A stretch of 64,000 bases of DNA from Aridibaculum aurantiacum (lineage in GTDB: Bacteria; Bacteroidota; Bacteroidia; Chitinophagales; Chitinophagaceae): positions 377,001 through 441,000 of the forward strand of contig NZ_JAFEWC010000003.1 in NCBI RefSeq assembly GCF_017355875.1. Reading direction: 5' to 3'. The notes under the pieces were generated by a model that had not been told where the DNA came from, did no database searches, and saw only the letters and a list, made by a program, of their open reading frames with translations. Below, in pieces: positions 58,987-64,000 of this stretch. Made by a program: the position numbers and the translations under genes. Within the stretch, counting starts at the first letter, position 1. The number at the start of each line of letters is the position of its first letter.

Positions 58987-59007
58987 ATCTAATCACGCAG
59001 AAAAATA

Positions 59008-59409
59008 TTATAGGTTAGCTACAACCAGGTTAGAAACAACATAACTGTTGTTGATGATCTGGTATGTTTTAACTTCTTTAGTAGACTTACTTTTTACCAC
59101 GAACCTGATGTTCTTCAGATCGTCTGAGTCAACATCTAGTTTGTATTTCTTAGAAATAGAATTTCCTTTTACTGTTTCTGAGTGAAGGATGTGGTTGTTC
59201 ACATCTGTGATCCTTACTTCAAATTCATCTTCAATAACGTTATCCAGCTTAAGCTCGAAAACAGGGGAAGAACCGATGTTGCCCAGGTAGCTGATTACGT
59301 TAGTTGCCTTGTTGCTGATGTCTGTTGCAGTAGCTGTGTTTGCAGCGCTAAAGCTGAACAGGATCATAAGGATTGCTAGTACCGGTAATTTGTTGATCAT
59401 AGTTTTCAT
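59008..59409 (-). CDS. Small secreted beta-rich protein
   Basis: A 133-residue protein with a signal peptide (MKTMINKLPVLAILMILFSF) and an Ig-like strand pattern (FEVRITDVNNHILHSETVKG, KYKLDVDSDDL) as in the secretion-linked beta-sandwich units of Bacteroidota, but without a T9SS sorting domain. Function unknown. Confidence 0.68.
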   Translation of the reverse strand: MKTMINKLPVLAILMILFSFSAANTATATDISNKATNVISYLGNIGSSPVFELKLDNVIEDEFEVRITDVNNHILHSETVKGNSISKKYKLDVDSDDLKNIRFVVKSKSTKEVKTYQIINNSYVVSNLVVANL

Positions 59410-59415
59410 AATCAT

Positions 59416-59747
59416 TGTATTTCAATTGTTGTAAAAAAAGTTAAATGGTAGTGGCAACCGTGTGGCAAACAAAAGAAAATGGCTATGACAAGTATCGTGA
59501 GGATGTGAAGCCTAGTAGTGTATTCTGACTTGATGATGTAAAAGTAGTGCCGTAGAATGAACGCCAAATAACAGATTCATGTTCGTTCTCTGCTCTTAAA
59601 CTTCAATGTGATTTTCTGAAACCCTTGCTATTACTGCGTTTCAAGCGAATAGCTGTATGATGCCCAACCGAAAAACAGGCTTTGACTTGACCCTCCACTT
59701 AACAATTCATTAATTTACTTACATTAATTATAGATCATTAATCAAAT
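59416..59747. other. Gene-free 330-bp stretch
   Basis: I see no reading frame or structured RNA here; it becomes very AT-rich near 59700 and ends at the terminator of the DAHP synthase gene. Confidence 0.5.
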
Positions 59748-59800
59748 AAAAAAGACATAGAACTATTCTTCATTATGAGGAATAGTTTCTATGTCTTTTA
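59748..59800 (-). terminator. Long Rho-independent terminator of the aromatic operon
   Basis: On the minus strand AAAAGACATAGA pairs with TCTATGTCTTTT and ACTATTC with GAATAGT, giving a stem of about 20 bp with one bulge, then TTTATTTG. Confidence 0.85.
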
Positions 59801-59835
59801 AATTATACATTTAATGCCGATGCATTAAGTATTTA

Positions 59836-60924
59836 TTAGGAATTCAAAACCTTCGTTTGGTGGTTGATACTTTCTATGTGTACAGCATCAAAATATTTAG
59901 TAATAAATTCTTTACTCAATCCTAATAATTCACCTTTTATATACGCTCTTTCCAATATCTCGTTGTAGCGGTTGGTTTGCAGTACGGTGATGTTGTTTTC
60001 TTTTTTGTACTTACCAATTTGTTCTGCTACAAGCATACGTTGTCCAAGTATCTGCATCAGTTCATCATCCAGGTGGTTTATCTTATTACGCAGCTGATCT
60101 AATGCATTGTGATACTCTTCTGAGTTGATGTCTTCCTTACGCCAGATGATCATGTCGAGCAATTCATTTAGCTGTGTAGGTGTTACCTGCTGCTTTGCAT
60201 CGCTCCATGCATTGTCTGGATCAATATGACTTTCTATTATCAATCCATCATAATCAAGATCTATAGCCTTCTGTGCTACATGAATCAATGTATCTCTGCG
60301 GCCACATATATGCGACGGATCATTGATCATCATTAGCCCTGGGTTTCGGCGCTTCATCTCGATAGCAAGATGCCACATAGGAGCATTACGAAATTCTGTA
60401 TTACCATAAGAGGAAAACCCACGATGTATCAAGCCAATATTCTTGATACCTGCTTTAGCTACACGCTCTACTGCACCTGTCCATAGTTCAAGATCAGGAT
60501 TGATAGGGTTCTTTATTAAAACAGGAATATCTACACCACGAAGTGCATCTGCTACTTCCTGTACGCTAAATGGATTTACGGTTGTTCGTGCACCGATCCA
60601 AACAATGTCCACATCAAAATGCAGTGCATCTTGTACCTGCTTGGCTGAAGCAACTTCTACTGCAGTAAGTAATCCTGTTTGCTTCTTTGCCTGTTGCAAC
60701 CAGGGCAGTCCTTTGGTGCCAATGCCTTCGAAATTTCCTGGCCTTGTACGAGGTTTCCATATACCTGCACGTAGTACATCTACCTTACCTGTTTGTGCCA
60801 GTTGCTTCGCCGTTTCAATTACCTGCTCTTCAGTTTCTGCACTGCACGGACCAGAAATTATCAGCGGACGCTTAGCCCATACCTGGTCGATTGTTTTATT
60901 TTCTTTAGTTGCTGTTGTATTCAT
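59836..60924 (-). CDS. Bifunctional DAHP synthase (class I-beta) and chorismate mutase
   Basis: Catalyses the first step of the shikimate pathway and the branch point to prephenate. 362 residues: DAHP synthase at 1 to about 260 (ISGPCSAETEEQ, GIWKPRTRPGNFEGIG, FSSYGNTEFRN, MINDPSHICGRRD), then an AroQ-type chorismate mutase at about 270-362 (LRNKINHLDDELMQILGQRM). The mutase is at the C-terminus, the reverse of the order in Bacillus-type fusions but known in Bacteroidota such as Porphyromonas and Prevotella, where prephenate inhibits the enzyme. Separated from tyrA by a 99-bp low-complexity gap. Confidence 0.93.
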   Translation of the reverse strand: MNTTATKENKTIDQVWAKRPLIISGPCSAETEEQVIETAKQLAQTGKVDVLRAGIWKPRTRPGNFEGIGTKGLPWLQQAKKQTGLLTAVEVASAKQVQDALHFDVDIVWIGARTTVNPFSVQEVADALRGVDIPVLIKNPINPDLELWTGAVERVAKAGIKNIGLIHRGFSSYGNTEFRNAPMWHLAIEMKRRNPGLMMINDPSHICGRRDTLIHVAQKAIDLDYDGLIIESHIDPDNAWSDAKQQVTPTQLNELLDMIIWRKEDINSEEYHNALDQLRNKINHLDDELMQILGQRMLVAEQIGKYKKENNITVLQTNRYNEILERAYIKGELLGLSKEFITKYFDAVHIESINHQTKVLNS

Positions 60925-60938
60925 AATTATTTATTTAA

Positions 60939-61019
60939 GTCAAAGTCAAAATTCAAACGTCAAAAGTCAAAATCGGAATGCACTACCTCACTACTTACTA
61001 TACACCATTCACTACTCAC
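60939..61019. repeat. Low-complexity insertion between tyrA and the DAHP synthase gene
   Basis: AGTCAAAGTCAAAATTC followed by TCAAAAGTCAAAATCGG, then CACTACTTACTATACACC and ATTCACTACTCACCATCTC. The CACCATTCACTAC words resemble those of the repeats at 1144-1170 and 1634-1660. It interrupts an operon in which the other genes touch or overlap. Confidence 0.55.
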
Positions 61020-61023
61020 CATC

Positions 61024-61863
61024 TCACTTCAATATCCTTTTTATTTCATTCGCATGTGTCATCAGCGATTCCAGGTATTCATAATTCTCTTTTTCAAGAC
61101 TTGCCTTGAACTTGCGTAACTGGCTGATGTGTTCATTCAAAACATCCAAAACATTTTCCCTGTTTTCTCTAAAGATGGAACTCCATGTTGCCGGGTTACT
61201 TTTCGCAAGCCTTACGGTACTTTCAAAACCACCACTTGCCAATTCAAAAATGGCATCTTCTTCCTTTTCTTTTTCCAGTACAGTATTGGCCAAGGCAAAA
61301 GATGTGATGTGTGAAATATGGCTAACATAAGCCACGTGCACATCATGCTCTTTTGCATTCATGTATACGATGTGCATACCTAATGTTCTGTATATTCTTT
61401 CAGCTAATTCTTCTGCGTCTTTATCTGTTTCTTCTTTGTTGCAGATCACGCAAGCCTTGTTGGCAAATGCTTGTCGTTCTGCAGCCTCAGGGCCACTAAA
61501 TTCAGTTCCCCACATAGGATGCGTAGCCACAAACCTGCTTCGCTTTGGGTGATCTTTTACTACATCTATAATACCTTCTTTCGTAGAGCCAACATCCATC
61601 ACAACCTGTTGGTCTACTTTATCCAAAATGCTTGGTAACATTTGCATGACCACGCTTACCGGCACTGCCAGCACTACCAGTTGTGATTGTTTAATAGCTT
61701 CATCCAATTCCATCATCTCATCCACCAGTCCAAGCTGTAAAGCCTTTGCCTGGTGGATCTCATTGCTATCTACGCCTATGATCTTGCTGGCTAATCCTTT
61801 TTCTTTTAGAGTAAGAGCCAATGATCCACCAATAAGACCGACGCCTATAATTGTAGTTGTCAT
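61024..61863 (-). CDS. tyrA: Prephenate dehydrogenase
   Basis: Converts prephenate to 4-hydroxyphenylpyruvate with NAD for tyrosine. 279 residues: N-terminal Rossmann motif GVGLIGGSLALTLKEKG, the catalytic HPMWGTEFSGPEAA region (His at about 115) and a helical dimerisation domain. Overlaps the aminotransferase gene upstream by 4 bp. No ACT domain. Confidence 0.93.
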   Translation of the reverse strand: MTTTIIGVGLIGGSLALTLKEKGLASKIIGVDSNEIHQAKALQLGLVDEMMELDEAIKQSQLVVLAVPVSVVMQMLPSILDKVDQQVVMDVGSTKEGIIDVVKDHPKRSRFVATHPMWGTEFSGPEAAERQAFANKACVICNKEETDKDAEELAERIYRTLGMHIVYMNAKEHDVHVAYVSHISHITSFALANTVLEKEKEEDAIFELASGGFESTVRLAKSNPATWSSIFRENRENVLDVLNEHISQLRKFKASLEKENYEYLESLMTHANEIKRILK

Positions 61864-63023
61864 TTTATTTTACAATGTGTAGTTATGCTTTCTATTGATC
61901 GTGTAAAGTTCTCTTCCGTGCTACATAAGCTCACACGTACATACTTTTCGCCGGCAGATCCAAAGATGCCACCGGGTGTTATAAATACTCTTGCGTTATA
62001 CAATACTTCATCACTCAGCTCAAATCCTGATTTATATGCAGCTGGTATTTTTGCCCATACAAATAAGCCTACCTGTTGTTTTGAATAGCTACATCCAAGA
62101 AGGTCTAAAAGCTGAAATGCTTTTTCTTTTCGCTTGCTGTAAACTTCATTTACTTGCTGGTGCCAGTCAGCGCCAAGGCTTAAAGCCTTTGCTGCAGCCA
62201 GCTGTAGCGGAAGAAACATGCCACTGTCCATATTGCTTTTAAAACGTATGATCTCATCTATTCGTTCTTTAGCACCACTCAATACACCTACACGCCACCC
62301 GGCCATATTATGCGATTTGCTCAGTGAGTTCAATTCTACTGCAACTTCTTTAGCACCATCAACAGCAAGTAAACTTGCAGGGTTTTCATTTAGTATAAAA
62401 CTGTATGGATTGTCGTGGCAAATAAGGATGTTATGTTTTTTACCAAAAGCGATCAGCTTTTCAAACAATGCTTTAGTTGGTAATTGGCCTGTTGGCATAT
62501 GCGGGTAATTCACCCACATCAGTTTTACCTTACTTAGATCTTTTTGTTCGAGCGCATCAAAATCTATTTGCCAATCATTCTCTTCTTGCAGTTCATATTC
62601 TACACAAGTACCACCGGCCAATTGTACAGCACTTCTATAAGTAGGATAGCCGGGATTAGGAATAAGCGCCTCATCTCCATGTTCCAGGTAGGTCATGCAT
62701 ATATGCATGATGCCTTCTTTGGAACCAATGAGCGGCAGAATTTCTGTTGCAGGATCTAACGTTACATGATACCACTGGCGATACCAGTCTGCAAATGCCT
62801 GTCGCAATGCATCCACTCCTTTATAGCTTTGGTAGCCATGCACATTTTGTTTGGCTGCGTCTTGTTGTAAAGCCTCTATCACTTCGGGATTAGGTGGCAG
62901 GTCGGGGCTGCCAATACCAAGATTGATAACAGCTGTGCCTGACTTATTCATTTCCTGTATCTCTTTCAGTTTTTGCGAGAAATAATATTCTCCAATGCCG
63001 TTCAACCTGCTTGATACTTTCAT
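61860..63023 (-). CDS. PLP-dependent class I/II aminotransferase (aromatic pathway)
   Basis: A 387-residue fold-type I aminotransferase: INLGIGSPDLPPNP, GSKEGIMHICMTYLEHGDE, HDNPYSFILN and the PLP-lysine motif ELNSLSKSHNMAGWRVG. Position between pheA and tyrA suggests it transaminates phenylpyruvate and 4-hydroxyphenylpyruvate to Phe and Tyr; LL-diaminopimelate aminotransferases are similar in sequence. Its ATG touches the pheA stop. Confidence 0.9.
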   Translation of the reverse strand: MKVSSRLNGIGEYYFSQKLKEIQEMNKSGTAVINLGIGSPDLPPNPEVIEALQQDAAKQNVHGYQSYKGVDALRQAFADWYRQWYHVTLDPATEILPLIGSKEGIMHICMTYLEHGDEALIPNPGYPTYRSAVQLAGGTCVEYELQEENDWQIDFDALEQKDLSKVKLMWVNYPHMPTGQLPTKALFEKLIAFGKKHNILICHDNPYSFILNENPASLLAVDGAKEVAVELNSLSKSHNMAGWRVGVLSGAKERIDEIIRFKSNMDSGMFLPLQLAAAKALSLGADWHQQVNEVYSKRKEKAFQLLDLLGCSYSKQQVGLFVWAKIPAAYKSGFELSDEVLYNARVFITPGGIFGSAGEKYVRVSLCSTEENFTRSIESITTHCKIK

Positions 63024-63851
63024 TTAGATCGTTTTACCTTTTTTGTATAAACCAAGAACTGTTAGCTCTTGTGTAAGTGGTTGTATTTTTTGCAAAGCGT
63101 TGTCAAACTTCTTTATGTTGTCAAATTCCATGTCTGCATGAAAGCTATACTTCCAGTCGCTGCCGGGGATAGGCATGCTTTGTAGCTTGCTAAGGTTTAT
63201 GCCAGCGGATGCTATTTTACTCAAAACCTTCGCCAGGCTTCCTTTTGAGTGGTCTGTAAAAAAGTTAACTGAAGCCTTGTTTGCATCTTCCACTTTCGCT
63301 GTTGTTCCTTCGCGTTTCAATACCAGGAAGCGTGTATAGTTGTTTTTCATGGTGTGAATGTTGGGTGCAATCACATCAAGATTGTACAGTTGCGCAGCCA
63401 GTTTACTTGCCACTGCAGCTATGTGTTTACTGCGGTTCTGGTGTACATGCTTAGCACTCAAAGCAGTGTCTTCGGTCTCCACCAGTTTCCATTTATACTT
63501 ATCAAAAAAATCGATGCACTGCAACAGCGCCATAGGGTGGGAGTGCACCTCGCGGATATCCTGTAATTGAACACCTGGATTAACCAAAAGGTTTTGCCTG
63601 ATCTGCAGGTAAACCTCGCCTACAATTTTTAGGTTGCTTTTTAGCAGGAGATTGTAATTGGGAAGAATGCTGCCGGCTATAGAATTTTCAATAGCCATTA
63701 CGCCGCCATCACTTTCTTTTTTGTTGGCAGCAATTTTTACAACCTCCCTAAAAGTAGCACATGGGATAACTTCCACGTCATCAAAAAATTGTTGAGCTGC
63801 CACCTGGTGAAAGCTTCCTTCAAAGCCTTGTATTGCAATTTTTAAACTCAT
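63024..63851 (-). CDS. pheA: Prephenate dehydratase
   Basis: Converts prephenate to phenylpyruvate. 275 residues: the PDT domain at 1 to about 185 (IQGFEGSFHQVAAQQFFDD, GVMAIENSIAGSILPNYNLL and the TRF motif NYTRFLVLKREG) and a regulatory ACT domain at about 190-270. The ATG at 63851 (MSLKIAIQG) is preferred to one at 63866. First gene of the aromatic operon and placed just behind an attenuator-like terminator. Confidence 0.95.
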   Translation of the reverse strand: MSLKIAIQGFEGSFHQVAAQQFFDDVEVIPCATFREVVKIAANKKESDGGVMAIENSIAGSILPNYNLLLKSNLKIVGEVYLQIRQNLLVNPGVQLQDIREVHSHPMALLQCIDFFDKYKWKLVETEDTALSAKHVHQNRSKHIAAVASKLAAQLYNLDVIAPNIHTMKNNYTRFLVLKREGTTAKVEDANKASVNFFTDHSKGSLAKVLSKIASAGINLSKLQSMPIPGSDWKYSFHADMEFDNIKKFDNALQKIQPLTQELTVLGLYKKGKTI

Positions 63852-63864
63852 GATTTTGTGCAAC

Positions 63865-63893
63865 AAAAAATCCCGGCCTTGTGAGCCGGGATT
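63865..63893 (-). terminator. Attenuator terminator upstream of pheA
   Basis: On the minus strand AATCCCGGC, 7-nt loop TCACAAG, GCCGGGATT, then TTTT, ending 13 bp before the pheA start. Its left arm can instead pair with 63938-63946. Confidence 0.85.
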
Positions 63894-63961
63894 ATCTATG
63901 TTGAGTTTTTTAATTTTTCTATGGTTTCAACAAAAGCATCCCGGCTCCTTTCGTAAAGAAG
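63865..63961 (-). promoter_or_regulatory. Transcription attenuator of the pheA operon
   Basis: On the minus strand, in order: CTTCTTT, loop ACG, AAAGGAG (63945-63961, hairpin 1:2); AGCCGGGAT (63938-63946, arm 2); ATCCCGGCT (63884-63892, arm 3, exact complement of arm 2); GCCGGGATT (arm 4). 2:3 is an antiterminator that excludes the 3:4 terminator. Arm 2 is inside the leader-peptide frame just after the Phe/Tyr codons. Confidence 0.65.
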
Positions 63962-64000
63962 TAATAAAAAAAGAAGTAACGATATCCTTTGTTTGTTGTC
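63919..64000 (-). CDS. Phe/Tyr-rich leader peptide of the pheA operon (partial at window edge)
   Basis: Reading from the edge: TTNKGYRYFFFYYFFTKGAG then MLLLKP and TAG at 63919-63921. Ten consecutive codons, Tyr-Phe-Phe-Phe-Tyr-Tyr-Phe-Phe and the nearby Tyr, are Phe or Tyr, matching the products of the operon. The start codon would lie outside the window. The other frame in this stretch is open too, up to TAG near 63896, so the choice rests on composition and position. Confidence 0.55.
   Translation of the reverse strand, partial: TTNKGYRYFFFYYFFTKGAGMLLLKP

Follow-up and report, generated by a model that had tools for sequence, protein, structure and literature searches.

The region upstream of pheA in Aridibaculum aurantiacum appears to contain a ribosome-mediated transcription attenuator of the trp/phe type, which would sense the charging of tRNA-Phe and tRNA-Tyr together; we put the probability of this reading at about 0.9. 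An attenuator controlling a Phe/Tyr operon had been proposed in a preliminary description of the window (the whole stretch of 64,000 nucleotides that was analysed), and the proposal is now supported, at the level of sequence, by a start codon, conserved codons and covarying arms. Several hallmarks of trp/his/phe-type attenuators are found here: a small ORF in which codons for the products of the pathway form a run, an intrinsic terminator between this leader and the first structural gene, an antiterminator (arms 2:3) that excludes the terminator, and an arm 1 able to take arm 2, the last being moderate in this genome. The features are listed in Table 1.

Table 1. Features of the pheA leader region and operon, with the His and Trp leaders of the same genome
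Feature	Position	Strand	Sequence	Remarks
Leader ORF	63919..64000	minus	MTTNKGYRYFFFYYFFTKGAGMLLLKP*	27 codons; first two bases past the window end, notional 64002-64001
Regulatory codons	63955..63978	minus	YFFFYYFF	8 Phe/Tyr codons in a row; codons 9-16 of the leader
Arm 1	63986..63993	minus	AACAAAGG	pairs with CTTTTGTT just 3' of the arm 2 core; putative protector (anti-antiterminator)
Arm 2 core	63938..63947	minus	GAGCCGGGAT	inside the leader ORF; starts 7 nt after the Phe/Tyr run
Arm 2 extension	63927..63932	minus	TGTTGA	complementary to TCAACA
Arm 3 extension	63899..63904	minus	TCAACA
Arm 3	63883..63892	minus	ATCCCGGCTC	common to antiterminator (2:3) and terminator (3:4)
Arm 4	63865..63877	minus	GCCGGGATT	continues into the U-run (intrinsic terminator)
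U-run of terminator	63865-63870	minus		ends 13 nt before the pheA ATG
pheA	63024..63851	minus		prephenate dehydratase (PF00800); first structural gene; ATG at 63851
Aminotransferase gene	61860..63023	minus		class I/II (PF00155)
tyrA	61024..61863	minus		prephenate dehydrogenase (PF02153, PF20463)
DAHP synthase gene	59836..60924	minus		fused to chorismate mutase (PF00793, PF01817)
His leader before hisG	L255:1356-1403	plus	LHIHHHH type	own genome; relatives in L259-L287
Trp leader before trpE	L257	minus	mostly WWWH	own genome; relatives in L308-L336

The leader and its fold

The frame running through GYRYFFFYYFF, which had been noted on the minus strand upstream of pheA, is present as described. 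Sequence past the end of the window supplies the in-frame start that the preliminary description anticipated, an ATG whose G is position 64000, so that the leader ORF is complete, with its stop codon at 63921-63919 (minus strand). A promoter close upstream had been anticipated as well, and a Bacteroidota-type -7 box is located just 5' of this ATG. A conserved longer protein in another frame had been named as the finding that would speak against a leader peptide; the two alternative frames stay open over the whole leader in just 11 and 18 of 98 family genomes, and do not look like such a protein.

The arms first described, AGCCGGGAT (63938-63946), ATCCCGGCT (63884-63892) and GCCGGGAT plus T-run (63865-63877), were all recovered on the minus strand. 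The complementarity between arms 2 and 3 proved to be longer than claimed, comprising GAGCCGGGAT/ATCCCGGCTC and, after an internal loop, UGUUGA/UCAACA, a pairing that lengthens the antiterminator. To these arms we add arm 1, for which a pairing with CUUUUGUU is also given. Folding of the RNA between 64000 and 63850 gives -37 kcal/mol (z = -4.4), a value equalled by none of 200 shuffles. The terminator consists of 10 pairs, 6 of them G-C. On the two strands of the region 59000-64000 there are 7 terminator-like sites, as compared with 3.8 in shuffles, and this terminator ranks first among them.

The genes pheA, aminotransferase and tyrA adjoin or overlap one another, and a terminator between tyrA and the DAHP synthase gene was looked for and not found. 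The approximately 100 nt that separate these last two genes (60925-61023) are repetitive and AT-rich. The named set comprises the 80 best-matching of 152 related loci from the GTDB collection (Segetibacter, Niastella, Flavihumibacter, Puia and others), and its nearest match is from Segetibacter (80%). Within the stretch covered, the aminotransferase gene is next to pheA in 79 of these 80 loci, and tyrA is there too in 76.

The arms and the way they covary, the codon run and the distances between the elements are evident from the sequence; from these we infer the following dynamics. Transcription would start at or a few nucleotides before the leader ATG, and a ribosome would load at once and trail the polymerase. 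When Phe or Tyr is scarce, this ribosome would stall on the regulatory codons, covering arm 1 and leaving arm 2 free to pair with arm 3 once arm 3 emerges; arm 4 would then stay single-stranded, and the polymerase would read on into pheA-aminotransferase-tyrA-DAHP synthase/chorismate mutase. When both Phe and Tyr are plentiful, the ribosome would reach the stop codon and mask the distal part of arm 2 or, alternatively, arm 1 would take arm 2 after release of the ribosome. With arm 2 masked or taken, arm 3 would pair with arm 4 and transcription would end at the U-run before pheA.

The spacing of the elements fits this model. The distance from the end of the Phe/Tyr run to arm 2 has a median of 10 nt (middle half 8-12), and that from the end of arm 2 to the leader stop codon a median of 11 nt; with ribosome footprint sizes taken from general knowledge, this is what a stalled ribosome would need in order to free arm 2, and a completing one in order to cover part of it. 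In A. aurantiacum, a ribosome at the leader stop codon would sit over the arm 2 extension. Here 16 nt separate the end of the arm 2 core from that codon, so that masking of the core would be slight, and repression in this genome may lean on the pairing of arms 1 and 2.

Occurrence among relatives

The criterion for a leader was a small ORF starting with ATG, located within 400 nt upstream of pheA and containing 6 or more F/Y in a stretch of 10 codons. The top-scoring ATG ORF of 8-70 codons was chosen and ties went to the shortest, so that the ATG taken is the one closest to the Phe/Tyr run. The pheA gene was found in 103 of 147 Chitinophagaceae genomes. For the class, a search that may overlook distant copies gave pheA in 72 of 247 genomes; subtraction of 5 own-family matches and of 2 more (G166, G355) from these 72 leaves 65 regions of other families. 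In line with the conservation of Phe/Tyr codons that the preliminary description expected, a Phe/Tyr leader precedes pheA in 98 of the 103 Chitinophagaceae regions against 7 of 515 shuffled regions, and on the strength of these shuffles a chance ORF is rejected. The leader also occurs in 43 of the 65 regions of other families (15 families; shuffles 3/325), and is hence present in 16 families of the class, Chitinophagaceae included. No leader reached the threshold in 5 of the 103 family and 22 of the 65 other-family regions, the method being such that some true leaders are scored as misses, for example MKLTQTYFWFYPASKREG (L116), with a score of 4. The named set, reduced to 79 loci by leaving out one with too little upstream sequence (L252), gives 78 leaders (shuffles 6/395), a count that is not independent because its genomes are shared with the family set.

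Codons for both F and Y occur in each of the 219 scored leaders, which include 78 named loci partly repeating family genomes, with medians of 6 Phe and 4 Tyr codons. Trp codons are also seen in 40 of the 219 leaders, in some beside the Phe/Tyr run (e.g. L121, L123, L138, L340), and such leaders perhaps serve as a general aromatic sensor in some families.

Outside the class, 95 genomes had a pheA match, from which 22 upstream regions, mostly high-scoring, were picked by hand; only 3 of these 22 (L337, L352, L353) have the Phe/Tyr leader, and a phylum-wide origin is unsupported. The pheA of these three has 42-50% identity to that of the window and scores 215-267 bits against it, compared with at most 177 bits in the other 19. 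As their pheA is thus the nearest to the window's, the operon more probably spread to these genomes, which suggests that it was transferred along with its attenuator.

Pairing between the arms and alternative readings

A hairpin with a T-run follows the Phe/Tyr run in all 98 family leaders and in 42 of 43 leaders of other families, as compared with 15 of 98 and 6 of 43 shuffled segments; under looser rules, applied without a control, a terminator-like hairpin is found in 219 of 219. Of the 98 family segments, 76 were aligned by sequence alone, after removal of 1 because of its length and of 21 near-duplicates. In this alignment 95.3% of the terminator cells are paired, and 9 of the 10 terminator pairs have changed on both sides. 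Changes on both sides occupy 69 cells against 18.8 in shuffles, none of 500 shuffles matches the observed values, and a shift by one column lowers the pairing to 57%. For the antiterminator, pairing amounts to 67.5% of cells (63.2% after a slide of -1), and 85 cells show changes on both sides, compared with 40 in shuffles; this count is weakened by the MAFFT alignment, which places arm 2 in two registers, and we therefore relied on a rank test.

Duplexes of arms 2 and 3 within the family reach -19.9 kcal/mol with the genome's own arm 2, -15.9 with that of other genomes and -7.3 with shuffled ones, and the corresponding values in other families are -15.9, -11.4 and -7.6 kcal/mol. In 44 of 141 leaders arm 3 lacks CCCGG, and there the own arm 2 has a mean rank of 0.15 where 0.5 is expected, computed, as all these ranks, without correction for relatedness. 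For 23 of these 44, at most 7 of the 140 other genomes' arm 2 fit equally well, and for 4 (L063, L112, L114, L126) the own arm 2 falls in the worse half, more than half of the others fitting as well. The covarying complementarity of arms 2 and 3 that the preliminary description looked for in relatives is therefore seen as compensatory change, more weakly in the alignment count.

Pairing of arm 1 with arm 2 follows the same trend, scoring 18.0 with the own arm 2, 14.8 with swapped and 13.0 with shuffled ones across the family; the helix of this genome, at 16.5, is only moderately above the shuffled mean. Leaders of the VVF type (e.g. GCAAATACA with TGTATTTGC) score 20.4 with their own arm 2 against 13.9 with that of the LLL type. 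Those of the LLL type (e.g. AACAAAGG with CTTTTGTT, or AAGGCAT with ATGCTTT) score 17.9 with their own, against 13.0 with VVF-type arm 2, and fit their own no better than that of other LLL-type leaders (18.0). Since arms 1 and 2 covary by leader type, the ends of the leader peptide seem to be dictated by RNA pairing.

This tracking bears on whether the peptide itself, as a conserved functional micropeptide (for example in the membrane), could be the selected product and not a stalling device. An aromatic, hydrophobic peptide present across families would suit such a role; however, the number and order of F and Y vary, the C-terminal residues track the RNA arm (PGMLLL, SRVVFAK and GCFC types) and the N-terminal codons track arm 1 by leader type, which leaves a micropeptide highly improbable. 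Still less probable is a chance ORF overlying a hairpin that is simply the ordinary terminator of the thrABC operon upstream. In this genome thrC is indeed directly upstream on the same strand, but this is so in 1 of the 80 named loci (flanks of up to 2.5 kb, less in a few), against a leader in 78 of 79, and the covariation of arm 2 with arm 3 also speaks against an ordinary terminator.

Of the readings that keep the leader as a regulator, translational attenuation would have the 3:4 hairpin hide the pheA start while transcription continues. In this genome 17 nt separate the end of the stem from the pheA ATG, which would favour such hiding, yet the hairpin continues into a T-run, and the gap between stem and pheA ATG is at least 30 nt in 33 of 97 family genomes and at least 50 nt in 12. 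We regard this possibility as very unlikely, if the least improbable of the three, and favour attenuation of transcription.

Relation to known systems

No Rfam family reached its gathering threshold anywhere in the window (4227 families searched), and a T-box leader or a known riboswitch was rejected on this ground. For the Phe_leader family (RF01859) the score is 23.6 bits, the gathering threshold being 55. The pheL-pheA system of E. coli works alike, with Phe codons, alternative hairpins and a terminator before pheA; the likeness lies in the working and does not imply common descent. The E. coli phe leader has Phe codons and is not known to have Tyr codons.

Leader peptides for amino acids are described, in passages of an earlier survey, as known in Proteobacteria and Actinobacteria, with Firmicutes added (PMC2965389). 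In Flavobacterium psychrophilum, a member of the same phylum, passages of one report speak of strong indications that leader peptides attenuate amino-acid operons and of a conserved 5' element before pheA that is kept in other Flavobacteriaceae genera and has no Rfam hit (PMC9723704). The gene, the suggested attenuation and the absence of an Rfam match are shared with the present leader; those passages contain neither leader sequence nor codons, whereas here 16 families have a leader containing codons for Phe as well as Tyr, together with covarying arms. A Phe-Tyr-Phe (FYF) leader likewise precedes a DAHP synthase gene, aroF, in Corynebacterium glutamicum, as passages of another report have it, and differs in phylum, in operon and in having 3 codons against the run of 8 here (PMC4046766).

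The preliminary description held that a combined Phe/Tyr sensor in Bacteroidota would be of interest. A leader with both kinds of codon is indeed there, but it is less new than supposed, given what the passages on F. psychrophilum hint at (PMC9723704) and the FYF leader (PMC4046766). The kind of attenuator is already known, and attenuation before pheA was hinted at in F. psychrophilum; what is new is the breadth across the class, the presence of both codons in all 219 leaders, the lack of an Rfam match and the promoter box near the ATG in the family. A search of the open-licence literature found no description of a Phe/Tyr leader in Bacteroidota.

If the attenuator reading is true, classical attenuation would be a broad means of controlling amino-acid synthesis in the class Bacteroidia, whose translation initiation is unusual. 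The dual sensor for Phe and Tyr would then set the whole terminal branch by the scarcer amino acid. Classical attenuation needs a ribosome that keeps pace with RNA polymerase, and the leader would then be a natural reporter of transcription-translation coupling in Bacteroidia. The leader element could also become an Rfam family of its own.

A promoter box close to the leader ATG and other leaders

For the leader studied here a near-leaderless transcript is predicted from the position of the promoter box; the aroF transcript of C. glutamicum is leaderless. According to passages on F. psychrophilum, the Bacteroidota sigma-A box, TAnnTTTG, extends from -12 to -5, and leaderless mRNAs make up 5.5% of those examined (PMC9723704). 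In A. aurantiacum the box TATATTTG is followed by 6 nt and then by the leader ATG, a position that predicts a 5' UTR of about 2 nt. Among the family leaders, the nearest exact box is 4-10 nt before the ATG in 70 of 98, farther in 15 and missing from the 90 nt upstream in 13; for leaders of other families it is at 4-10 nt in 2 of 43, at 15-35 nt in 19, farther in 3 and missing in 19. As a control, 235 ORFs of at least 200 aa were taken from 464 kb of the own genome (20 stretches plus the window; starts are first-ATG guesses), and the box was at 4-10 nt in 7, elsewhere within about 90 nt in 24 and lacking in 204. The comparison of 70:15 with 7:24 (box at 4-10 nt vs elsewhere) gives a Fisher p of 4e-9, uncorrected for relatedness. 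Judged by this box position, the family leader is predicted to be near-leaderless, in a phylum where Shine-Dalgarno pairing is little used. A comparable case is trpL of Sinorhizobium meliloti, as passages of its report describe it: its 5' end is at the ATG of the leader, giving a leaderless leader peptide, while here this is predicted, and it differs in concerning Trp and an alphaproteobacterium (PMC7298713).

The same genome carries His and Trp leaders that resemble the Phe/Tyr leader in design. Before hisG we found MNLHLHIHHHALAER, with a box 5 nt before its ATG and then a hairpin with a T-run; a longer ORF is open in the same frame too. Before trpE lies MKAISLQNNWWHIFSFPG, with CATATTTG 7 nt before the ATG and again a hairpin with a T-run. 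Across the family, a His-run leader precedes hisG in 27 of 30 loci examined (out of 50 matches), with the exact box 4-10 nt before the ATG in 20 of the 27. A Trp leader precedes trpE in 28 of 30 loci examined (out of 46 Anth_synt_I_N matches from 39 genomes), the exact box being at 4-10 nt in just 7, and several of the other trpE leaders carry versions resembling CATATTTG. With these leaders in mind, one may speculate, at what we would call even odds, that the Phe/Tyr, His and Trp attenuators of Chitinophagaceae follow one lineage-specific plan, in which the transcript would start at or just before the leader AUG and ribosomes would board the nascent RNA immediately, guaranteeing coupling. The shift would be specific to this lineage because similar leaders in other families sit behind a longer 5' UTR.

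In the own genome ilvD is located behind another gene, where no leader was seen. Upstream of thrA in the thrABC operon, outside the window (L002:10984-11082, minus strand), there is a Thr/Ile-rich leader, MKLSIIHIASHTSCHAVTTFVGTTFTTIITTL, with a hairpin, ACAACCCTTTAAGGGTTGT, across its stop codon and without a clear U-run; this is possibly a Thr/Ile attenuator of another type.
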